The position numbers were made by a program, and so were the translations under genes. The notes below the pieces were generated by a model, which was not told the DNA's origin, searched no databases, and saw nothing but the letters and a program-made list of their open reading frames with translations. Below are positions 11,165 to 49,974 of a stretch of DNA of 64,000 nt, in pieces. Every line of letters starts with the position of its first letter. Within the stretch, counting starts at the first letter, position 1. This stretch comes from Cinnamomum chago (taxonomy: Eukaryota > Streptophyta > Magnoliopsida > Laurales > Lauraceae). The DNA is taken from positions 3,936,501 through 4,000,500 of the forward strand of contig CP142453.1 in the NCBI GenBank assembly GCA_038049695.1, read 5' to 3'.

Positions 11165-11221
11165 CGGCCTGTGACACGCCTACAGAAATAATTTTAGCTG
11201 CTCTGGAATACGAGTCTAAGA

Positions 11222-12550
11222 ATGCCAATGACTGAGCAGCTCATGTTTCATCTTCTTTCTACCCATGAAGAGGGTGAAAGAGACATCATTATGCAGAGAG
11301 GACACTCCGTGATTAGAATAGATGTCATGGAACAAATATTCAGTTGCTTGAACAATCTAGCCACTAGCATGCTATTTGGTCCGCATTGGAGATGGATTGC
11401 ACAATGTTTAAAAGGTACCCATGAAGAGGGCGAAGGAGACGTCATTATTCATGGAGAAGAAGAATCTGAGCTTGGGTTTTCAAATCTAGATGTCATGGAA
11501 CAGGTATTTACTCGGTTAAATGATGTAGTCACTCGCATCCGATTCAGTGCCGTCTGTCAATCCTGGAGAAGTGTTGCACAATGCTGCTCTAGCAGGCACT
11601 ACAAGAAACCCATATGGTGGATTCTCGATTACTTTGAGTTTTATGGTACCCGGGATTTTTTCAGTTTCGCAGATGGGGTGACTTACAAACTACCCGTGAC
11701 AAAATGTGCGTGGTGGATCTGTTGTGGATCTTACGAGGGTTGGTTGATAATGCAAGCCAGATGTTGGATTGGGAATAAGGTTATGCTCGTAGAACCATTG
11801 ACTAGAGTCCAACTTCGTCTTCCAATAATGGACTTACATAACTTGCGCGCAGGTGATCAATATACTATCATATCATGTGCTTTTTTGTCGTCCCCTCCTA
11901 GATCAAATGATGGAGCCGATAACAACAACTGTTTGGTGGTAGCTGTTGATTTTCGTAAGAATCTCCACCTGTGCAGAATAGGTGACAAGTCTTGGACTCG
12001 TCATGATATGGACTGTGGCCCACTCTCAAATTTCAGTTACTGGGAGATGCTACTACTTCACCAAGGACCAACAGCTCTTGTCCCTGGGGATAGACGCAAT
12101 GAGGTCCTGGTCATGGAGTTCGATCATCATCTTAACTTGAGAGCTAAAATTCACCACTTGTCACCTTGGATTCATGGTCATTATTATCGTATGAAAAATT
12201 ATTTTGTCGAATGGCGTGGGGAGATTCTCCTGGTGGTCCACGATTTCCATCTTGGTGATGGGATATTTCATGTGTACAAGATTGGTTCAAGTTGGAATTT
12301 GGTGAAGGTGAAAAGCTTGGGCGATGGAGTTATCTTCTTGACAAATACACAAACCAGATGCTTCTCTGCTAGTGACTTTCCTACGTTGAATTTGAAAGGC
12401 AATTGCATCTGTTATTTGCCATTATATTTTTACCCTGATAAAGGAGTATATTTCTTCTATTTAGAAGACGGAAGATCGGAGTGGTGCAACCAAAACAAGC
12501 GTTTGTTTCACACGAAGCACTTCTGGTATAAACCCAATTTGCATTACTAG
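11222..12550 (+). CDS. F-box protein with DUF295 (KIB1-4 beta-propeller) domain
   Basis: A single uninterrupted frame encodes 442 residues. A canonical F-box lies at residues 89-120 (LDVMEQVFTRLNDVVTRIRF, then VCQSWRSVAQ), the Skp1-binding part of an SCF ubiquitin ligase. The C-terminal two thirds (about 140-420) has the DUF295 pattern: GSYEGWLIM, VEPLTRVQLRLP, repeated W/H-rich strands and a late YFFYLEDG. F-box/DUF295 proteins form large, fast-evolving plant families that select targets for ubiquitination; the substrate here is unknown. The N-terminus is odd. Residues 14-62 are a degenerate copy of 66-121, giving a second F-box-like helix set (IDVMEQIFSCLNNLATSM). The start at 11222 is the first ATG after an in-frame TAG at 11195. 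The frame is intact, so the gene may be active. Confidence 0.85.
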   Translation: MPMTEQLMFHLLSTHEEGERDIIMQRGHSVIRIDVMEQIFSCLNNLATSMLFGPHWRWIAQCLKGTHEEGEGDVIIHGEEESELGFSNLDVMEQVFTRLNDVVTRIRFSAVCQSWRSVAQCCSSRHYKKPIWWILDYFEFYGTRDFFSFADGVTYKLPVTKCAWWICCGSYEGWLIMQARCWIGNKVMLVEPLTRVQLRLPIMDLHNLRAGDQYTIISCAFLSSPPRSNDGADNNNCLVVAVDFRKNLHLCRIGDKSWTRHDMDCGPLSNFSYWEMLLLHQGPTALVPGDRRNEVLVMEFDHHLNLRAKIHHLSPWIHGHYYRMKNYFVEWRGEILLVVHDFHLGDGIFHVYKIGSSWNLVKVKSLGDGVIFLTNTQTRCFSASDFPTLNLKGNCICYLPLYFYPDKGVYFFYLEDGRSEWCNQNKRLFHTKHFWYKPNLHY

Positions 12551-29995: not shown

Positions 29996-30309
29996 ATGTA
30001 AGGCTTAGGTTCATGCATGAGACTTCTTTTGGTTGCTGTTGAATAACATGGAATGCGGAAATATTGTTGTACTTCTTATATTATAGTTTGGAGGAAAGTT
30101 TTTTATTTTAATTGAGAAGGCAAGAAGCTCCAGTAAACAGAGGGCCATCAAAACAATCTGAGTCGTTAAATAAAATTAGTTGTCTCTGACCAAGACAACA
30201 ACAGGTCAGTCCATCTAACCCACAGCTTTTAATTAAACACTATTGTGAATTTAGGTTCATTCAACAAAATTGGTCACTTGTTAAACAAGACAAGTAATTA
30301 TTTTTCTTA

Positions 30310-30415
30310 GGGAAAAAAGCACTATACTTACCTGGACTTTGGCCGTTTTGCAGAGTGATCCCTGAACTTTGGTATTTGTGACTAAACCTACCTGTAGTTT
30401 TAGTTGGCATGCAAA
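30310..30415 (+). repeat. MULE left terminal inverted repeat
   Basis: Pairs with 33994-34099 over about 106 bp, about 95 percent identical by eye. The presumed promoter of the GRF gene lies in or just after it. Confidence 0.93.
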
Positions 30416-30580
30416 ATGGACGGATTCTGTTAGTATTAACAGTGTAGGTCGTATAAAATCTGTTTGGTGCATACTGGCGCCAAGTTGCTCTCCCAAAAAG
30501 ACATATTTGCCCCTAAATCAGCTTATAAAACATTGGAAGTGCACCAGACATGTTCTTAGTGAATTCTTTTCTTTCCAGCC

Positions 30581-30983
30581 ATGGCTTCCTCTCAAAACTC
30601 TCAAAACTCCTGCACCCATTGTTCTCGTGGCCAATACTCTCAACTTGATGGTGAAATTCGTTACTGTCACTGCGGGCATAGGGCTGCTTTGAGAACTTCT
30701 CGAACACAGCGCAACATGGGGAGGAGGTTTCTTGGCTGTGCTCTATATGGGGTTATGCTGTCAACTATCTGATTGTTCTTCTTGATGTATGGTCAATAAT
30801 GCTATTATTAATGTTATTTTGTTTCAATTTTTTTTCCAGATCCAGCCAGCGTGTGGATTTTTTGAATGGGTTGATGGAGAAAATGATCAGGTACAAAAGC
30901 TATTGGATAAGATTGATGTGCTGGAGAAGGAAATGAAGACAATTTGTCGAAGAGAAAAATGTTACCTACGTGTATTGCTGTGA
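30581..30983 (+). CDS. GRF-type zinc-finger protein with C-terminal coiled coil
   Basis: Two exons: 30581-30751 and 30840-30983 (donor GTTATG, acceptor TTTTTTTCCAG, phase 0), giving 104 residues. The zf-GRF pattern spans the splice: CHCG at 29-32, ALRTSRTQRNMGRRFLGC at 36-53, then CGFFEW in exon 2. The three Cys/His ligand blocks and the GRR-F-GC core are present. The C-terminus (about 75-104), VQKLLDKIDVLEKEMKTI, is a short coiled coil, as is usual in small plant GRF proteins. GRF fingers bind single-stranded nucleic acid in better-known proteins; the role here is unknown. It lies inside a MULE, 166 bp from the left repeat. The frame is intact. Whether it serves the transposon or is a captured host gene is open. 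Confidence 0.82.
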
Positions 30984-31199
30984 ACTTGGGCTGGAATTGT
31001 GTTTTTTTTTTTTCATGTGCTACCTAGTTGTGGCTTGGTTCCCTGTAGATGGGTTAGAATTACCATAATCATATGTATCAGTTGGAATATTTTAATGAAA
31101 ATGGGTTGGTGAAGTTTGCTTGTCCATGAATGCTTTGTTCACTCCTTATTTTGCTCTAAACTTTAATCAACCTGCAATAAGAAAAGCATCATCATCCAA

Positions 31200-31420
31200 A
31201 CACTCAATCCAGACAATTTAAAAGGTCATCTATGCTGCTCCAATCCATCATCATCATCCTAACAGTCAATCCAAACAATAAAAAATAGTCATCTATATAT
31301 GCTGCTCCAAACAGACATCATCATTCAATATGCCAATCCAAACAATAAAAAATGGTCATTTATGCTAAACTCCAAATAGTCATCATCATCCAAACAGTTT
31401 TTTGAAACAGTAATTGACAA
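31200..31420 (+). repeat. Degenerate tandem repeat (CAATCCAAACAATAAAAAATRGTCAT) in the MULE
   Basis: Three or four imperfect units of roughly 60-70 bp based on CATCATCATCCAAAC..CAATCCAAACAAT. It lies between the two convergent transcription units. Confidence 0.65.
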
Positions 31421-31562
31421 ACTACATCAGGTTGTCTTAAAACACCATCTCCCATAAACAAATTTACAACATCATCATGACAAAGTTTTTTAAAACAGAA
31501 CCAAAATAAAATCTTACAACATCATCCAGACAAAGTTTTAAAATAGAATCAACATAACATCG

Positions 31563-31727
31563 TCAGATTGTGCTGCCTTTTCCTGCTCCAATCCTCCCTC
31601 TACCTCTGGGTGTTGATGCAGACCTCGCTTGTTGTAACTTTCCTCTATCAGTGGTACTACTTGCTGATGAAAGTGGGTCTGTAAAATAACCACCATGGTG
31701 GAATTCAATTGTAACTTCATCAAACAT
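31563..31727 (-). pseudogene. Internally deleted MULE transposase (N- and C-termini joined)
   Basis: A 54-codon frame starts MFDEVTIEFHHGGYFTDP, which resembles the N-terminal PB1-like segment of plant MULE transposases (pattern: short beta strand, HHGG, F). It then passes directly to SSASSTTDRGKLQQARSAS and PRGRGRIGAGKGSTI before TGA. The latter resembles the basic, Ser-rich RGRG tail of those transposases. The whole catalytic middle (MULE DDE domain, SWIM zinc finger) is absent. The reading as a deletion derivative is inference, but it agrees with the Mutator repeats around it. Too short to be active. Confidence 0.6.
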
Positions 31728-33507
31728 CTGCGTGTAGAACCTTATACCAGTTAAGAAAAAAACAAAATATGTAATTTCTTAATCTAACATATGCAATTTC
31801 ATAATCTTGATCCTTTCTATAGTGCTTCTGAATAATATTCTAAATAACATACAAATACAAGGTCTAGTGTGCTGTGCATTGAATATGATGTACACATAGA
31901 TCTAAGACATACAAATACAAGGTCTAGTGTGTTGTGCATTGAAAGACCCTCTTCTTTGACCTCCACCATTTTTCTTACATCAGTCTGAGTTCATTTAGAA
32001 GGGACTAGCATAAAAAGAAAGGGTGTTTTTATAGCCCTTCATATAAAAATATGTTTTTGTTGTCTATAGAGAAAGATGAGGCCAAATACAACAGAACAGA
32101 GAATCTCAGTGCACTTAATCAATTGCATAGGCCTACTCTTAAAACTAGATATCCCAATTTGAGGAAAATATTACACTACGTAAGCGACAATGATGTAACA
32201 GTGGCACAGACATTAGAAACCTCAAAAGAATAAACAGAAAGAAGTACTACTCAATGAAATCAGCAGTGGCGCGCAAAAGGAACAGAACCCACAACAACAA
32301 TATTGAGAATTGGGTTCCTCTGTAAATCATTCTATGTGCCTCATCTTTTGATACAGATTTTGTGCCTGTCTAGTGGAAGTCTAAGGGTTGTCCAAGTGTA
32401 TGGGTGCCCTCGAAGCATGGAAACAAAGTAGTAAAAAGAAACAAGGAGTTCTTGCATAAGCGAGTCTGCCTTCTTAGGTTGAATCTACCTAAATAGAATA
32501 TTAAACTTGCAGCATACAAATTCTTCTAGTTTTTGTGTTCATGCCATTTTGAGGACTAACTCCAACATACTTACATGAAATTCAAAGCTTAGAAACTTCA
32601 GAAGAATGCTTCATAGACTTTAGAATCCAATAGACACAGATATGCAGAAACTCTTTATTCCATTATTTTATTCTCATTAGTACTTAAATATATGCAATCT
32701 CACTTTCTAAAATGGAAAAGAAATAATGAAGGTAAAAGTTAAAAAGGATGTCACAATAGGCCGGATGACATTGAAAATCTGAAGACATTACCTCCAACTC
32801 AAAATGTCAGCAATGGAAGACTAACATTTAATCCTGACAATGTTCACAAGGCAAATGGTGCAAATCAGGTGCCTCATCTTCAGGCACTAGCCAATTTATG
32901 AGGTCAATAGCTCAATATCCACCCATTTTAATCATCTTCATCTTAGCCTTATCCTGTTGATTTGAGTTCGTTATAATATGTTCTATTCAAGAAAAAGATA
33001 CTATCCTATCATTCTAACAAAGTTGGACAATAGCTGTAGGTGGGTGTCAGTCCAATTATGTAAGGGACACCTAACCTGAAATGTCATTAAAGCTAAAACT
33101 TGTTTCTAGTGTGTGACCCCCTATAAGTCAATAGTCTTCTTGTACTGCAATAGACAAAAATCAAAGGCTATCAATATCTCTTGGTGCAATTACACGATGA
33201 GCCACCTATGCGCAAGCTCCTCACTATAGCACTGCAACACCAGCACTTTCTTCCAAGCACACAAACAACCAGCATTAATGCAAGCCTGGTCATGGTAGAA
33301 AGCCACAACAACTCATTTCTCTGTTGTTAGTTGCTTCATGCTCTGTTGTTAGTTTTTTTCTCCCCGTGAATAGAATCAGAACTTGCAAACAGTAATATTG
33401 GAGAAATGAATGGGCCCCACAAAATGGCATCTTTGATCTCTCTTTCCTTGTCTTCTTCTTCTTCAACCTTCAAACCCACATACAATACCTAATCATCGAG
33501 ACCCACC

Positions 33508-33960
33508 TCAAATATAATAACAGTGCAGACAAAGTCTGTCCAATAAGGGTTGACTGTGGTCCCCTCCATGTGTAACAGCCACCATGGCTAACCCACAAAA
33601 GTAGCAGACAAGTGGGGTTTCTATTCCACCAACATTCAAACAGAAACAATAAACAAAAGAAACTGATTTTTTCAAGAGGGGACCATTTTCGACAGCGAAA
33701 GGTCCTACCTCTGAAACTGTATCAGACATTCACCATATCAGACAAAGAAGTTCAAAATCCTTAACCCATGGTCATCGGCAAGGCCTAGAACCACCACATG
33801 CATCAAATATATACATGATTAAGGGTATGAGATCATACCTCTGAAACCGCCGATGGTCCTTCGGTGTGGATCTGATGCATGCAAGGAAGGAGGAGAAGAT
33901 TTCGCCTAAAATCGCCAGAACCCTAACCGCAGGTGAAAAGGGGGAAAACGAGAAAAAATC
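33508..33960 (-). other. Candidate 5' exons/leader of the MULE minus-strand transcription unit
   Basis: Reading leftward from the right repeat, a leader-like stretch (TTAGGGTTCTGGCGATTTTAG on the minus strand) is followed by an ATG at 33880. This opens a 14-codon exon (MHQIHTEGPSAVSE) ending at a good donor, GTATGA (33838-33833). A second short MSDTVSE piece at 33729-33709 ends at GTAGGA. These look like leader exons of the transposase gene. Splicing is unproven. Confidence 0.35.
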
Positions 33961-33993
33961 GCTAACAGTATTTGCATGTCACGGCAGTTAGTA

Positions 33994-34099
33994 TTTGCAT
34001 GTCAACTAAAACTACAGGTAGGTTTAGTCACAAATACTAAAGTACAGGGGTCACTCTGCAAAACGGCCAAAGTACAGGTAAGTATAGTGCTTTTTTCCC
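33994..34099 (-). repeat. MULE right terminal inverted repeat
   Basis: Inverted partner of 30310-30415, followed by the 9-bp duplication at 34100-34108. Confidence 0.93.
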
Positions 34100-34109
34100 T
34101 TTTTCTTAT

Positions 34110-46400: not shown

Positions 46401-46479
46401 ACAGAGAAAAAAATAGACATAGAAACCACTCTGAGATTGAAAACCATATCTAGGTTCAGTTCTCTCCACTTCCCTTGAC

Positions 46480-49400
46480 ATGGAGTTCGTTTTCTTTTGC
46501 ACTAGATTTAGTGTCCTTGTTCTCCTTCTAACAGTTTCCTCTCCCTGCAAGTTCATTCAAAGCCCAATGGATTTTGGGCCTTTGAAATTGCTTCAGTCCA
46601 CCACCTCAGCATCTCTTGATTTTGGAAGGATTTTCTTCAATTCCCCTTCTGCAGTTCTTAGGCCTCAATCCCCCAGAGAAATCTCTCAGCTCCTAAACTT
46701 CCTTCAAACTTCTTCCTTAAGCAAAGTTACTGTTGCTGCCAGAGGAGCTGGACACTCCATCCATGGTCAAGCTCAAGCCCTCAATGGCATTGTTGTTGAG
46801 ATGGATTCTCTTCCTACTTCCATAAAAATCCACAAGAAAGGAGATGGGGAGTCTGGATTCTCATATGCAGATGTAAGTGGGGGGACTCTTTGGGTTGAAC
46901 TCTTGATGGAGAGCTTGAAAGAGGACCTTGCTCCAAGATCATGGACCGATTACCTATATTTAACCATTGGTGGGACACTCTCCAATGCTGGAATCAGTGG
47001 ACAGACTTTCAAATATGGTCCTCAGATCAGTAATGTCCTTCAATTAGACGTCATAACAGGTAGGGACATGCAATTGCCTCTCTCCACCTTCCTTTCTGGT
47101 TCATTTTGGATATCTTGGTACATACATGGGTTACTTGTATATGCTTTTATTGGATGGATTCATGGGTGGGTTTTTGTAGGAAAAGGAGAGCTTGTGACCT
47201 GTTCGCCCACCCAAAGCTCAGAGCTCTTTTATGCAGTTTTAGGTGGTCTTGGTCAGTTTGGTATAATAATGAGTGCTAGGATCCTGCTCCAAGATGCTCC
47301 ACAGAGGGTAGACCTCTTTTTTCTTAATGCATAGTATATTTCAAATTTTCAGTTTCTAGTTTGATTAATATATATATATATATATATATATATGCATCTT
47401 TTGTACGTTTCTTATCCTTTTGTTCAGTTGAGTGGCTTTTACTCTTCCTTTCTAATCTCAGGAATGTAATTTTCACATCTTAGGTGAGATGGGTCAGAGC
47501 CTTCTATGATGATTTTCAGAAATTCATCAAGGACCAAGAGCTGCTGATTTCAATGGCAGACATGGTGGACTACGTTGAAGGGTTCATGGTACTGAATGAG
47601 CAATCTCTACATAGCTCCTCCACTGCATTCCCTTCCCAACTGGGTTTCATACAACAATTACAGTCAGGCAGTTCAGATGTTTACTACTGCATTGAATTTG
47701 CAGTTCACTATTCTTCTGAAAAGGAATCCAATGTAGATCATGTAACTTACTTTCCATCATCTTACATTCCTGTCCACTTGCATGGTTTATTTAAGCACTG
47801 TTTACTTCTACCCACTAAAATTTACGCACCTACTCTCACGAGGGTAATTTGGAGACAAGAATTACCTAATTACCCATGTGATCAAATAACCCATTTGGGT
47901 CAGTCCATATGATTCTGGCCGTTCAACCTTTTTCTTGTCCTTCTTTCCCCATTAGGTTTTGATGACTAATAGATTTTGAATCTTTTCAGGTGCTTGAGGA
48001 GATATCAAAGAAATTGAACTTCATGCCCAACTTTATTTACAGTGTTCAAGTCTCATACTTGGATTTCCTTAATAGAGTTAGAGCGGAAGAGATGAGTTTA
48101 AGGAGAAGAGGGTTATGGGATGTCTCCCATCCATGGCTAAACATGTTTGTACCAAGGTCAGGAATCATTCAATTCAGAGATCTGCTGTTGGAGAACATCT
48201 CTCCTAGTACATTTGAGGGTCCAATACTCATATATCCAATCCTCAGAGACAAGTAAGTACCCGTATCTTTCCACTTAATATTAGGGCATGTTTGTGTAGT
48301 GGCTGCATAAATCAAAGTCCGAAGTCACGTGGAAATATTTTCTCCTATCCTTGCCCATAGGAAACACTTTGCAGAATTGTTACACTGCTTTTTATGCCTT
48401 TTCTTGTGGAAAAGAGCACACCAAAAGAAATAAGTTTTTTTTGCTTAAAAACATCCCACTTTTCCTCTCTGTTTCTATGAAAAAACGGTTACACAAATAT
48501 ACCCTTAGCATTTAATAATTAAGAGACTACTCGTCCCTTAGCTTCATCTTCTTCTTTTTTCTTCTGATTGGCCTTCCATGTTATATTAAACCTTACTTCC
48601 CCCATGGGTTTCAATTAACAGTTGGATTTAGAAGAGTTTCTCGTCCCTATCATATTAAATTTTCGCAATTAACCATTCCTACCAAAACCTCGAGACATTA
48701 GTATTTTCAATACTCCTTTTAGAGTGGAGCCCACTCCTCAACAAGTTTATGGTCATTAGAGTGGAGCCCACTTCTTCATTTTGGGCCTTTTGGCTCATTT
48801 GACGTGGAAAGTAGGGCCCATGGTTTAAGGGCCAGGATCTCTCTCTCCGTTTTGACTGACGATGACAAATCAGGTCACTTTCATTTCATTCTTTAAACAA
48901 AGGTAAGCCTTTGCCAAAGTCCTAATGCTTGCAATCTCGGTTTAAAAGTAAAATTTGGCTGTCTTGCTTTCTTCCCACACCTTTTCTGTTCTTCTAAAAG
49001 GACAGCACAGATACGATTTATGTGGTGTCTGCTCTCTGCAAAACCAAATTCCTAAGTTGTTTTGTTCTGTCTTTCTCTATGTATGTGGTGTCTTTTTCTT
49101 TAATAAATCATACCTTCCCACAAAATGCACAAGTGGCCCAACTTTTCATAAATCTTAAACGCCACAATTAACATCAAATGGAATTTTAGATCAATGTTGT
49201 GGGTCTAACTGGTACATTGATCACATATCTTATACATTATGAGCTTCATATATACCATGTAATACATATGATCAATCCAACTATATATAGATTTCATACG
49301 CATGAATTTAGTGGACGGGCTACACTTTAAGCGGTGTTGGGCCCTTCCAAGATACATGTTACAGCTATTTTGATGTTACTGTGAACAGAATGTAGGGCTC

Positions 49401-49974
49401 ATTTGGATCTCCATAAACTAAAGTGCTGGTAATTTGCTTTATAACATGTCTAAATGTCACTTCATATATGTGAACTGATCACAGCCTATTCTCATAGTAG
49501 AATCATTTTCAATACAACCCATTTTCTGAATAGAAACATGAGCAACCTTGGAATGATGTCAAATGGGCCCTAAATTGCTTTAATGTTAGTTTTTCTCATT
49601 TTCTGATGTATTCATGCAGGTGGAATTCGAATACGTCGGCCGTCCTGCCTAAGTCAAGCCCAGCAGGAGAAAATGTCCTCTACATAGTGGGGATGCTCCA
49701 ATCCGCCAATCCAAACACTTGTTCCTCAAAATGCCTCCAAGGACTGCTGCAAAAAAACCGCCGTGTGGTGGAGGGCGCGACCCACCCGCAAATTGGTGCG
49801 AAGCAATACCTGCCACACTACACCCAGGAAGCCCAATGGAGGGACCATTTTGGTAGCAGATGGGACCGATTTTTGGTGCGGAAATCTGAGTTCGATCCAC
49901 TCAGCATCCTCGCACCCGGTCAGGCCATCTTCAACAGGAAATACCAAGATTCAGTAAACAATTATGTGATCTGA
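46480..49974 (+). CDS. CKX: Cytokinin dehydrogenase (cytokinin oxidase)
   Basis: Five exons: 46480-47059, 47180-47307, 47484-47741, 47990-48252 and 49620-49974, all with GT-AG introns and consistent phase, giving 527 residues, normal for the family. It oxidatively cleaves the side chain of isoprenoid cytokinins using FAD. Residues 1-22 are a hydrophobic secretion signal. The FAD domain has VAARGAGHSIHGQAQA, with His92 as the expected covalent FAD site, then YADVSGGTLW, SWTDYLYLTIGGTLSNAGIS and ELFYAVLGGLGQFGII. The C-terminal substrate domain has VDYVEGFMVLNEQ, HPWLNMFVPRS, GPILIYP, KQYLPHYT, HFGSRWDRF and FDPLSILAPGQAIF. All are canonical and the frame is open, so this looks functional. The last intron is long (1.37 kb); intron 2 has a TA microsatellite. 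The paralogue number cannot be fixed by eye. Confidence 0.95.
47370..47393 (+). repeat. (TA)n microsatellite in CKX intron 2
   Basis: About 12 TA units between exon 2 and exon 3. Confidence 0.85.

Follow-up and report, generated by a model that had tools for sequence, protein, structure and literature searches.

In maize MuDR, the genes mudrA and mudrB point towards each other from the two long inverted repeats, and the element is flanked by a 9-bp duplication. Other plant MULEs carry additional genes, as do Hiun of Arabidopsis, a VANDAL21 element with vanB and vanC, and Abermu of barley with ORF1, ORF2 and ORFR, or a further domain in antisense orientation to it, as do those bearing a plant mobile domain (PMD). 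According to Table 1 of PMC6446971, a PMD antisense to the transposase occurs in most MUDR-group elements, and Jittery-group elements from both dicots and monocots have one ORF. The available text of the same paper describes mudrB as of unknown function and, together with that of PMC9168764, places ORFR of Abermu opposite in orientation to the transposase; the available part of PMC9569675 gives mudrB-like sequence as absent from Jittery and TED. The term 'GRF' does not occur in the main text of the Hiun and Abermu papers (PMC6446971 and PMC9168764), and in the titles, abstract openings and passages that the literature search covered, with Repbase and most subscription papers outside it, no description of a GRF gene paired with a MULE was found. 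GRF zinc fingers are present in NEIL3, where they bind single-stranded DNA, and also in APE2.

The element described here lies in a window of 64,000 nucleotides, this being the whole stretch analyzed, from Cinnamomum chago, the one genome searched for all counts given below. It shares with MuDR the two convergent genes, the 9-bp duplication and, in its relatives, MuDR-type transposase domains; unlike in MuDR, the second gene of the family encodes a GRF zinc-finger protein with a hydrophobic tail, and the likeness to mudrB noted here is one of layout. The same difference separates it from PMD-bearing MULEs, where the antisense domain is a PMD. The FAR1-type MULEs of this genome resemble Jittery in the FAR1, MULE and SWIM domains of their transposase (copy L073) but differ by an added convergent GRF gene. 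The finger is alignable to those of NEIL3 and retains conserved motifs, whereas here it occurs singly, in a small independent protein whose C-terminus bears a hydrophobic segment.

Layout of the element in the window

The original prediction had described 106-bp inverted repeats with a perfect 9-bp duplication, a spliced GRF gene running inward from the left repeat, and a minus-strand unit with transposase-like N- and C-terminal pieces, all of which were recovered (Table 1). The inverted-repeat search returned 107 nt at 95%, with one base per arm falling outside the element. The coding part of exon 2 comprises 30840-30980 and is followed by the stop codon at 30981-30983, yielding a product of 104 aa: the GRF gene had been thought intact in frame, splice sites and zinc ligands, which holds for the conserved cysteine positions and the splice sites, but the frame meets a stop at codon 105, ahead of the tail. 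The transposase remnant is a 60-aa piece whose two parts match the transposase of the relatives L069-L071, and a Pfam scan of this piece gave no match. Fragments of a 1.1-kb part of the stretch between remnant and right repeat recur close to a few other members of the family, and the stretch is therefore probably a native leader; an origin of this 1.1-kb middle as captured host DNA was considered and set aside, as the fragments lie near transposase starts of other family members. Taken alone, the window copy would resemble a Pack-MULE.

Table 1. Positions of the element and its parts in the window
Feature	Position	Strand	Remarks
Whole MULE element	30310-34099		Internally deleted, non-autonomous member of a MULE family with two genes
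Target-site duplication, left copy, 9 bp, TTTTTCTTA	30301-30309		Perfect match to right copy
Left terminal inverted repeat, 106 bp	30310-30415	+	Inverted-repeat search and 40 scored genome matches
GRF gene, exon 1	30581-30751	+	Start codon, C-x-C-G, third conserved finger cysteine
GRF gene, intron (GT-AG)	30752-30839	+	GT and AG present in 46/46 extracted copies
GRF gene, exon 2	30840-30983	+	Last conserved cysteine and linker; early stop before hydrophobic tail
67-bp tandem repeat, 3.3 copies	31187-31398		Between the 3' ends of both genes
Transposase remnant	31563-31745	-	N-terminal and C-terminal parts joined by internal deletion
Stretch between transposase remnant and right repeat	32259-33549	-	Probable native leader; 1.1-kb part recurs in pieces near a few family members
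Right terminal inverted repeat, 106 bp	33994-34099	-	Inverted-repeat search
Target-site duplication, right copy, 9 bp, TTTTTCTTA	34100-34108		Perfect match to left copy

Copies of the family and pairing of GRF genes with transposases

The inverted-repeat query yielded 40 scored genome matches at 98-100% identity among the matches listed, and GRF exon 1 has at least 126 matches in the host genome, of which 27, the window included, are identical over 57 aa; the element is therefore beyond chance, and the possibility that this copy alone carries a GRF gene falls away. Among the matches listed, a GRF gene lies on the same strand 262-275 bp into the element at 27 of the 40 repeats (at exactly 271 bp in 18 cases), and the other 13 are without it. 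The host genome also contains full-length relatives of 6.1-6.3 kb, in which the GRF gene converges on a MuDR-type transposase of 937-949 aa; three of them, L069, L070 and L071, have both genes and both inverted repeats in the convergent layout. Copies with full transposase thus also carry the GRF gene, in the same position and orientation, in line with the original inference. The MULE transposase domain PF10551 was found in L069 (4.6e-15) and L070 (9.2e-15), the two transposases scanned, both of which also contain DBD_Tnp_Mut and SWIM domains. A perfect 9-bp target-site duplication flanks L070; L069 sits in poly-A, where a duplication cannot be read, and none was seen at the flanks of L071. 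Long inverted repeats, a duplication of about 9 bp and the MULE transposase domain in the family place the element in the MULE superfamily, and a transposase and a second gene converging from one inverted repeat each make the family MuDR-like; with the GRF gene recurring in full elements with transposase, it is not a Pack-MULE family.

The frame stays open into the hydrophobic tail in 31 of 46 extracted GRF copies of the window's family (family A), and 12 of the 46 are truncated or frameshifted, including the window copy and the three siblings that share its deletion. These four internal-deletion copies have the fusion of N- and C-terminal transposase parts in common; the GRF protein of the window copy ends before the tail and those of the siblings inside the finger, which means that this lineage of deleted copies spread or persisted although its GRF genes were broken.

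Among the matches listed, 78 of 126 family A GRF matches have a MuDR-type transposase match within 10 kb, all 78 convergent; in family C, a second MuDR-type family, 16/16 transposase and 16/18 GRF matches are paired, again all convergent; and 81 of 125 FAR1-type transposase matches have a GRF match within 10 kb, 79 of them convergent, as against a mean of 0.5 and a maximum of 3 for randomly placed GRF positions (200 trials). Since the copies of one family are related, the convergent counts do not represent independent events. Without a GRF gene among the matches listed are 44 of the 125 FAR1-type transposases and 14 of 85 family-A-like transposases at 38% identity or more; such GRF-less transposase and repeat matches may be search misses, right-hand ends or real losses. 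The control MULE group consisted of transposase matches ranked 101-150 with 34-37% identity (40 matches, one removed for its proximity to a family A GRF gene): a convergent GRF gene was found at 0 of 39 and any listed GRF gene nearby at 2 of 39, and the control copy L116, read over 7.2 kb, encodes a transposase of 724 aa but lacks a GRF gene. No long inverted repeats were found at the ends of L117, the FAR1-type copy read. L073 was considered as a same-strand pair of GRF gene and transposase; this reading was dropped, as another GRF match, at C9:5548319 (-), converges on that transposase, and the GRF gene of L073 probably belongs to a neighbouring copy.

The GRF protein and selection on its gene

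The GRF proteins of family A, family C and the FAR1-type elements follow a common plan of N-terminal finger, linker and C-terminal hydrophobic segment. PF06839 scores 38.8 bits (1e-9) in the window protein, 48.7 bits in the FAR1-type L092 and 32.9 bits in the family C copy L072, with a curated cut-off of 25.9; in the Pfam scan of the GRF proteins this finger alone was matched and no enzyme domain was found. A hydrophobic segment near the C-terminus is present in all eight family proteins or tails tested and was matched by 0-16 of 500 shuffles. The finger aligns to the solved NEIL3 GRF fingers 7jl5 and 7omk at 7e-8 to 2e-7, with retention of the N-x-GR-F and C-x-F-x-W motifs. The structure prediction of a family C protein (10 close sequences; mean pLDDT 52.7) is too poor to judge the fold; at this low confidence, residues 61-97 come out as a long helix at the C-terminus, along with two short strands.

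In the FAR1-type lineage, pN/pS of the GRF gene amounts to 0.20 in the finger, 0.69 in the linker and 0.75 in the tail, and all 15 representative pairs have a dN/dS below 1 (median 0.37; the value of 0.82 in one of them is weakly supported), as do 64 of 66 pairs among 12 copies; purifying selection acts on the finger in these elements. Between family A and an older six-copy subgroup, finger codons 26-71 have 0 nonsynonymous and 3 synonymous fixed differences, and the family A singletons (45 nonsynonymous, 15 synonymous, 5 stop) look neutral. Family C has a median dN/dS of 0.75, below 1 in 77 of 90 defined pairs, and values of 0.45-1.13 in five pairs that include more diverged copies. The dN/dS evidence from families A and C is weak because their copies are too alike; the dN/dS comparison suggested with the original prediction was thus informative on the FAR1-type finger and nearly uninformative on the window's own, too uniform family.

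Probable accessory role, likely origin and possible function

Because the GRF gene accompanies transposases both in two MuDR-type families and in FAR1-type elements, and because the FAR1-type finger is conserved by selection, we regard it with high confidence as a conserved, lineage-borne accessory gene and not a passenger: the proposal that it is no random host fragment agrees with its recurrence alongside full transposases, in three lineages, and with the purifying selection on the finger. A Pack-MULE-like course, in which a host GRF copy was taken up once and carried passively by the amplifying element, would suit the window copy, which is without a working transposase and has a truncated GRF gene, and an origin by capture is made likely by the candidate host genes L120 and L121, which have tandem fingers, and by a candidate splice site of L120 at the matching place. 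Passive carriage is nevertheless highly improbable in view of the same convergent pairing in all three lineages, the selection on the FAR1-type finger and the retention of the hydrophobic tail despite a diverging linker, and a one-off event is contradicted by the number of GRF exon 1 matches and the pairing counts. Most likely, the accessory gene would descend from host GRF genes captured long ago with their intron and then retained by selection. The chances are even that such captures occurred separately in the MuDR-type and FAR1-type lineages and not in one ancestral pairing: the fingers of the two types are 33-59% identical, about their distance to the candidate host fingers (31-59%), and family C is intronless, whereas the family A and FAR1-type genes read have an intron of identical place and phase; this common intron, the identical layout and the shared protein plan speak against separate captures, and the comparison and tree built from the fingers alone, with 27-44 residues per pair and at most 44 alignment columns, are too short to settle one or several origins.

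With respect to function, the evidence points to the GRF-tail protein as a previously unrecognised helper of these MULEs. Full members carry a MuDR-type transposase gene that runs inward from one repeat and the small GRF gene, convergent with it, from the other; by analogy with NEIL3, the finger would bind single-stranded DNA or RNA, the hydrophobic tail would tether the protein to a membrane, either of the ER or the nuclear envelope, and the tethered protein would aid transposition or shield nucleic acid of the element, much as MURB might act in maize. We put this specific mechanism forward tentatively and with low confidence. Alternatively, the protein could act outside the transposition reaction, countering host silencing or regulating the element in the manner of vanC or a repressor: vanC of Hiun (available text of PMC6446971) is a known case of an additional MULE gene that acts against silencing, and the lineage specificity, with a control group without convergent GRF genes, would fit. 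As the GRF finger is the one Pfam match in the protein, and as a hydrophobic tail would be unexpected for a chromatin factor, we consider such self-protection rather unlikely. It also appears rather unlikely that GRF-tail proteins serve plant MULEs in general as an accessory factor, equivalent in function to MURB across MuDR- and FAR1-type elements, that would hold single-stranded transposition intermediates or transposon RNA at a membrane; if this were true, many annotated small GRF zinc-finger genes of plants would be transposon genes.

A GRF finger joined to a hydrophobic tail, together with a GRF-less control lineage, offers a testable handle on the roles of MULE accessory genes. Plant annotations may include small GRF genes that are carried by transposons, and the entry list of an Asteraceae comparison, in the available part of which GRF-type fingers appear alongside PMZ- and SWIM-type ones and transposon domains (PMC10359422), would fit this.

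Architecture and recurrence of the GRF-bearing MULE

The complete MULE of the original prediction, with its inverted repeats, its flanking duplication (TTTTTCTTA at both flanks), a two-exon GRF gene on the plus strand and a transposase remnant on the minus strand, was re-found throughout (see table). The protein of the GRF gene is 104 aa long and contains a GRF zinc finger (Pfam PF06839, 1e-9). The 60-aa transposase piece reads as an internally deleted transposase, because its residues 1-28 and ~21-60 match two places ~3 kb apart in the relatives.

Features of the MULE and of other loci in the window
Feature	Position	Strand	Remarks
MULE insertion, complete	30310-34099		106-bp inverted repeats and flanking duplication
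GRF gene exon 1	30581-30751	+	starts 271 bp in from the element's left end
GRF gene intron	30752-30839	+	GT-AG
GRF gene exon 2	from 30840, stop 30981-30983	+	
Transposase piece	31563-31745	-	60 aa
450-aa frame	11198-12547	+	KIB1-4 beta-propeller, weak F-box match
Cytokinin dehydrogenase gene exons	46441-49971	+	FAD_binding_4 and Cytokin-bind domains

We searched the host genome (1.06 Gb, 14 contigs) for further copies of this family, termed family A. Among the best 40 of 563 candidate matches to the left repeat, all at 98-100% identity, 27 carry the GRF exon 262-275 bp inward on the same strand as in the window (18 at exactly 271 bp), and 13 are without a GRF exon among the matches listed; recurrence at a fixed place and strand, which the original prediction proposed as a check, was thus borne out. 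The GRF exon itself gave at least 126 matches (best 150 of 229 candidates scored), 27 of them identical across 57 aa. The gene is also present in copies with a full transposase frame: The relatives L069, L070 and L071 are elements of ~6.1-6.3 kb with both repeats, open transposase frames of 945, 949 and 937 aa, respectively, and a convergent GRF gene on the opposite strand. MULE, DBD_Tnp_Mut and SWIM domains were found in both transposases scanned with Pfam. A perfect 9-bp duplication flanks L070, L069 is inserted in poly-A, and inspection of the L071 flanks revealed no duplication. The GRF gene is open into the C-terminal hydrophobic segment (the tail) in L069 and damaged in L070 (altered tail frame) and L071 (frameshift in exon 1). 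Elsewhere, C9:6651373-6661839 contains two mutually inverted family-A repeat and GRF matches; GRF lies towards the outside in each, and their outer ends are ~10.5 kb apart.

In the window lies a defective and non-autonomous copy of the family. With three deletion siblings (C1:93927401, C8:2942122, C9:5880817) it shares the fused transposase piece as well as ~2.9 kb of sequence at 97-98% identity; the GRF genes of these siblings stop at codon 59, ahead of the last conserved cysteine. Across 46 distinct family-A GRF copies, window included, GT and AG are present in all; the frame is open into the tail in 31, the tail frame is altered in three, and 12, among them the window, are truncated or frameshifted ahead of the tail. 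The claim of an intact gene consequently holds for the splice sites and cysteine positions and fails for the whole protein, since the window frame stops at codon 105 and lacks the tail.

Pairing of GRF and transposase genes by MULE lineage

We counted a GRF and a transposase match as paired when they lie at most 10 kb apart, using the best 150 of 1252 candidate MuDR-type transposases. In family A, 78 of the 126 listed GRF matches are paired, all 78 convergently and with a median of 1.8 kb between starts, and 48 are without a transposase among these best 150 of 1252. Seen from the transposase, 71 of the 85 listed family-A-like matches (at least 38% identity) have a family-A GRF within 10 kb; 14 have no GRF match from any list. 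A second MuDR-type family, family C, has a transposase 29-41% identical to that of family A and inverted repeats of 198 bp (93%). A convergent GRF gene accompanies all 16 listed transposases (66-100% identity), and 16 of 18 GRF matches lie near a transposase. Its representative L072 (flanks L118/L119) sits in a TA-repeat with a ATATATATA-like duplication read by eye, reminiscent of the MULEs described as targeting TA microsatellites (MuTAnT).

The third lineage has FAR1-type transposases with FAR1, MULE and SWIM domains (Pfam). Here, GRF lies within 10 kb at 81 of the 125 transposases listed (of 1623 candidates), 79 convergent; conversely, 82 of 213 GRF matches lie near a listed transposase (80 convergent, one divergent, one same strand). 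In 200 trials with random GRF placement, the mean was 0.5 and the highest count 3. In the FAR1-type copy L117, GRF is on the plus and a 754-aa transposase frame on the minus strand, and examination of its ends revealed no long inverted repeat. Between both genes (L117:1529-4141) lie large repeat arrays with ~189-bp steps in inverted arrangement. Among the FAR1-type transposases at ~83-88% identity, many copies have two TGA codons in frame within the query stretch, which may reflect an intron common to them or a long-dead lineage that still amplified. The proteins of another GRF group (L074, L075) have a strongly hydrophobic C-terminus, and on the strand opposite to GRF, L075 contains remnants of a transposase, including a SWIM domain.

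As control, we took 40 transposases from positions 101-150 of the list, 34-37% identical to family C and regarded as a single other MULE group, and dropped one near a family-A GRF: Two of the remaining 39 lie near any listed GRF, none convergently. For the control copy L116, 7.2 kb of sequence show a 724-aa transposase containing MULE domains and no match to GRF. Five of the 46 listed matches at 34-37%, all those below family C, lie near a family-A GRF; identity alone therefore separates the groups imperfectly. We conclude that GRF goes with certain MULE lineages; given the relatedness of the copies in each family, the counts characterise lineages and should not be read as independent events.

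Extra genes are known from MuDR, Hiun, Mutyl, Abermu and PMD-antisense elements, according to PMC6446971 and PMC9168764, whose main texts do not mention GRF. Among the papers listed in literature searches and in passages of PMC8774480, PMC4334395, PMC11734081 and PMC10359422, no description of a GRF-MULE pairing was found.

Origin, putative function and selection

Two candidate host GRF genes, L120 and L121, have tandem fingers and no listed transposase within 20 kb. Their fingers share 31-59% identity with those of the transposons, and in L120 a GT site stands at the place matching the transposon GRF intron. The likely origin is therefore that host GRF genes were captured together with their intron, in one event or several.

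The finger matches the solved NEIL3 GRF fingers (7jl5, 7omk). A hydrophobic C-terminal segment occurs in all eight GRF proteins or tails tested (families A and C, FAR1-type, L074 group), with a best 17-residue hydropathy of 1.95-3.04 that 0-16 of 500 shuffled sequences reach; the window's truncated protein is without it (1.06; 109 of 500). From hydropathy alone, the tail would be a membrane anchor. We infer a putative accessory protein whose finger would bind single-stranded nucleic acid, whose tail would hold it in a membrane, and which would help transposition; the main rival assigns it an anti-silencing or regulatory role instead.

The FAR1-type GRF genes are spliced at the same place. For 12 of 13 copies (excluding L094, whose exon 2 contains a stop; the fetched stretch may end before some of the tails do), dN/dS is below 1 in 64 of 66 pairs. 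Among six representatives this holds for 15 of 15 pairs (median 0.37); dN stays below dS in at least 96.8% of defined resamples in 14 of these pairs, and in 370 of 500 codon resamples in the weakest one. The finger has a pN/pS of 0.20, against 0.69 for the linker and 0.75 for the tail. In family C the signal, computed over 14 of 16 copies (the other two are frameshifted) with stop codons ignored, is weak because the family is young (median 0.75; below 1 in 77 of 90 defined pairs). The family-A transposases gave dN 0.022 and dS 0.045 (L069-L070), 0.023 and 0.043 (L069-L071), and 0.007 and 0.006 (L070-L071). Family-A GRF genes have 45 N, 15 S and 5 stop singletons, a distribution near the neutral expectation of 0.67/0.28/0.05. 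Fixed differences relative to an older subgroup of six copies amount to 27 N, 15 S and one formal stop overall, and to 0 N and 3 S within finger codons 26-71.
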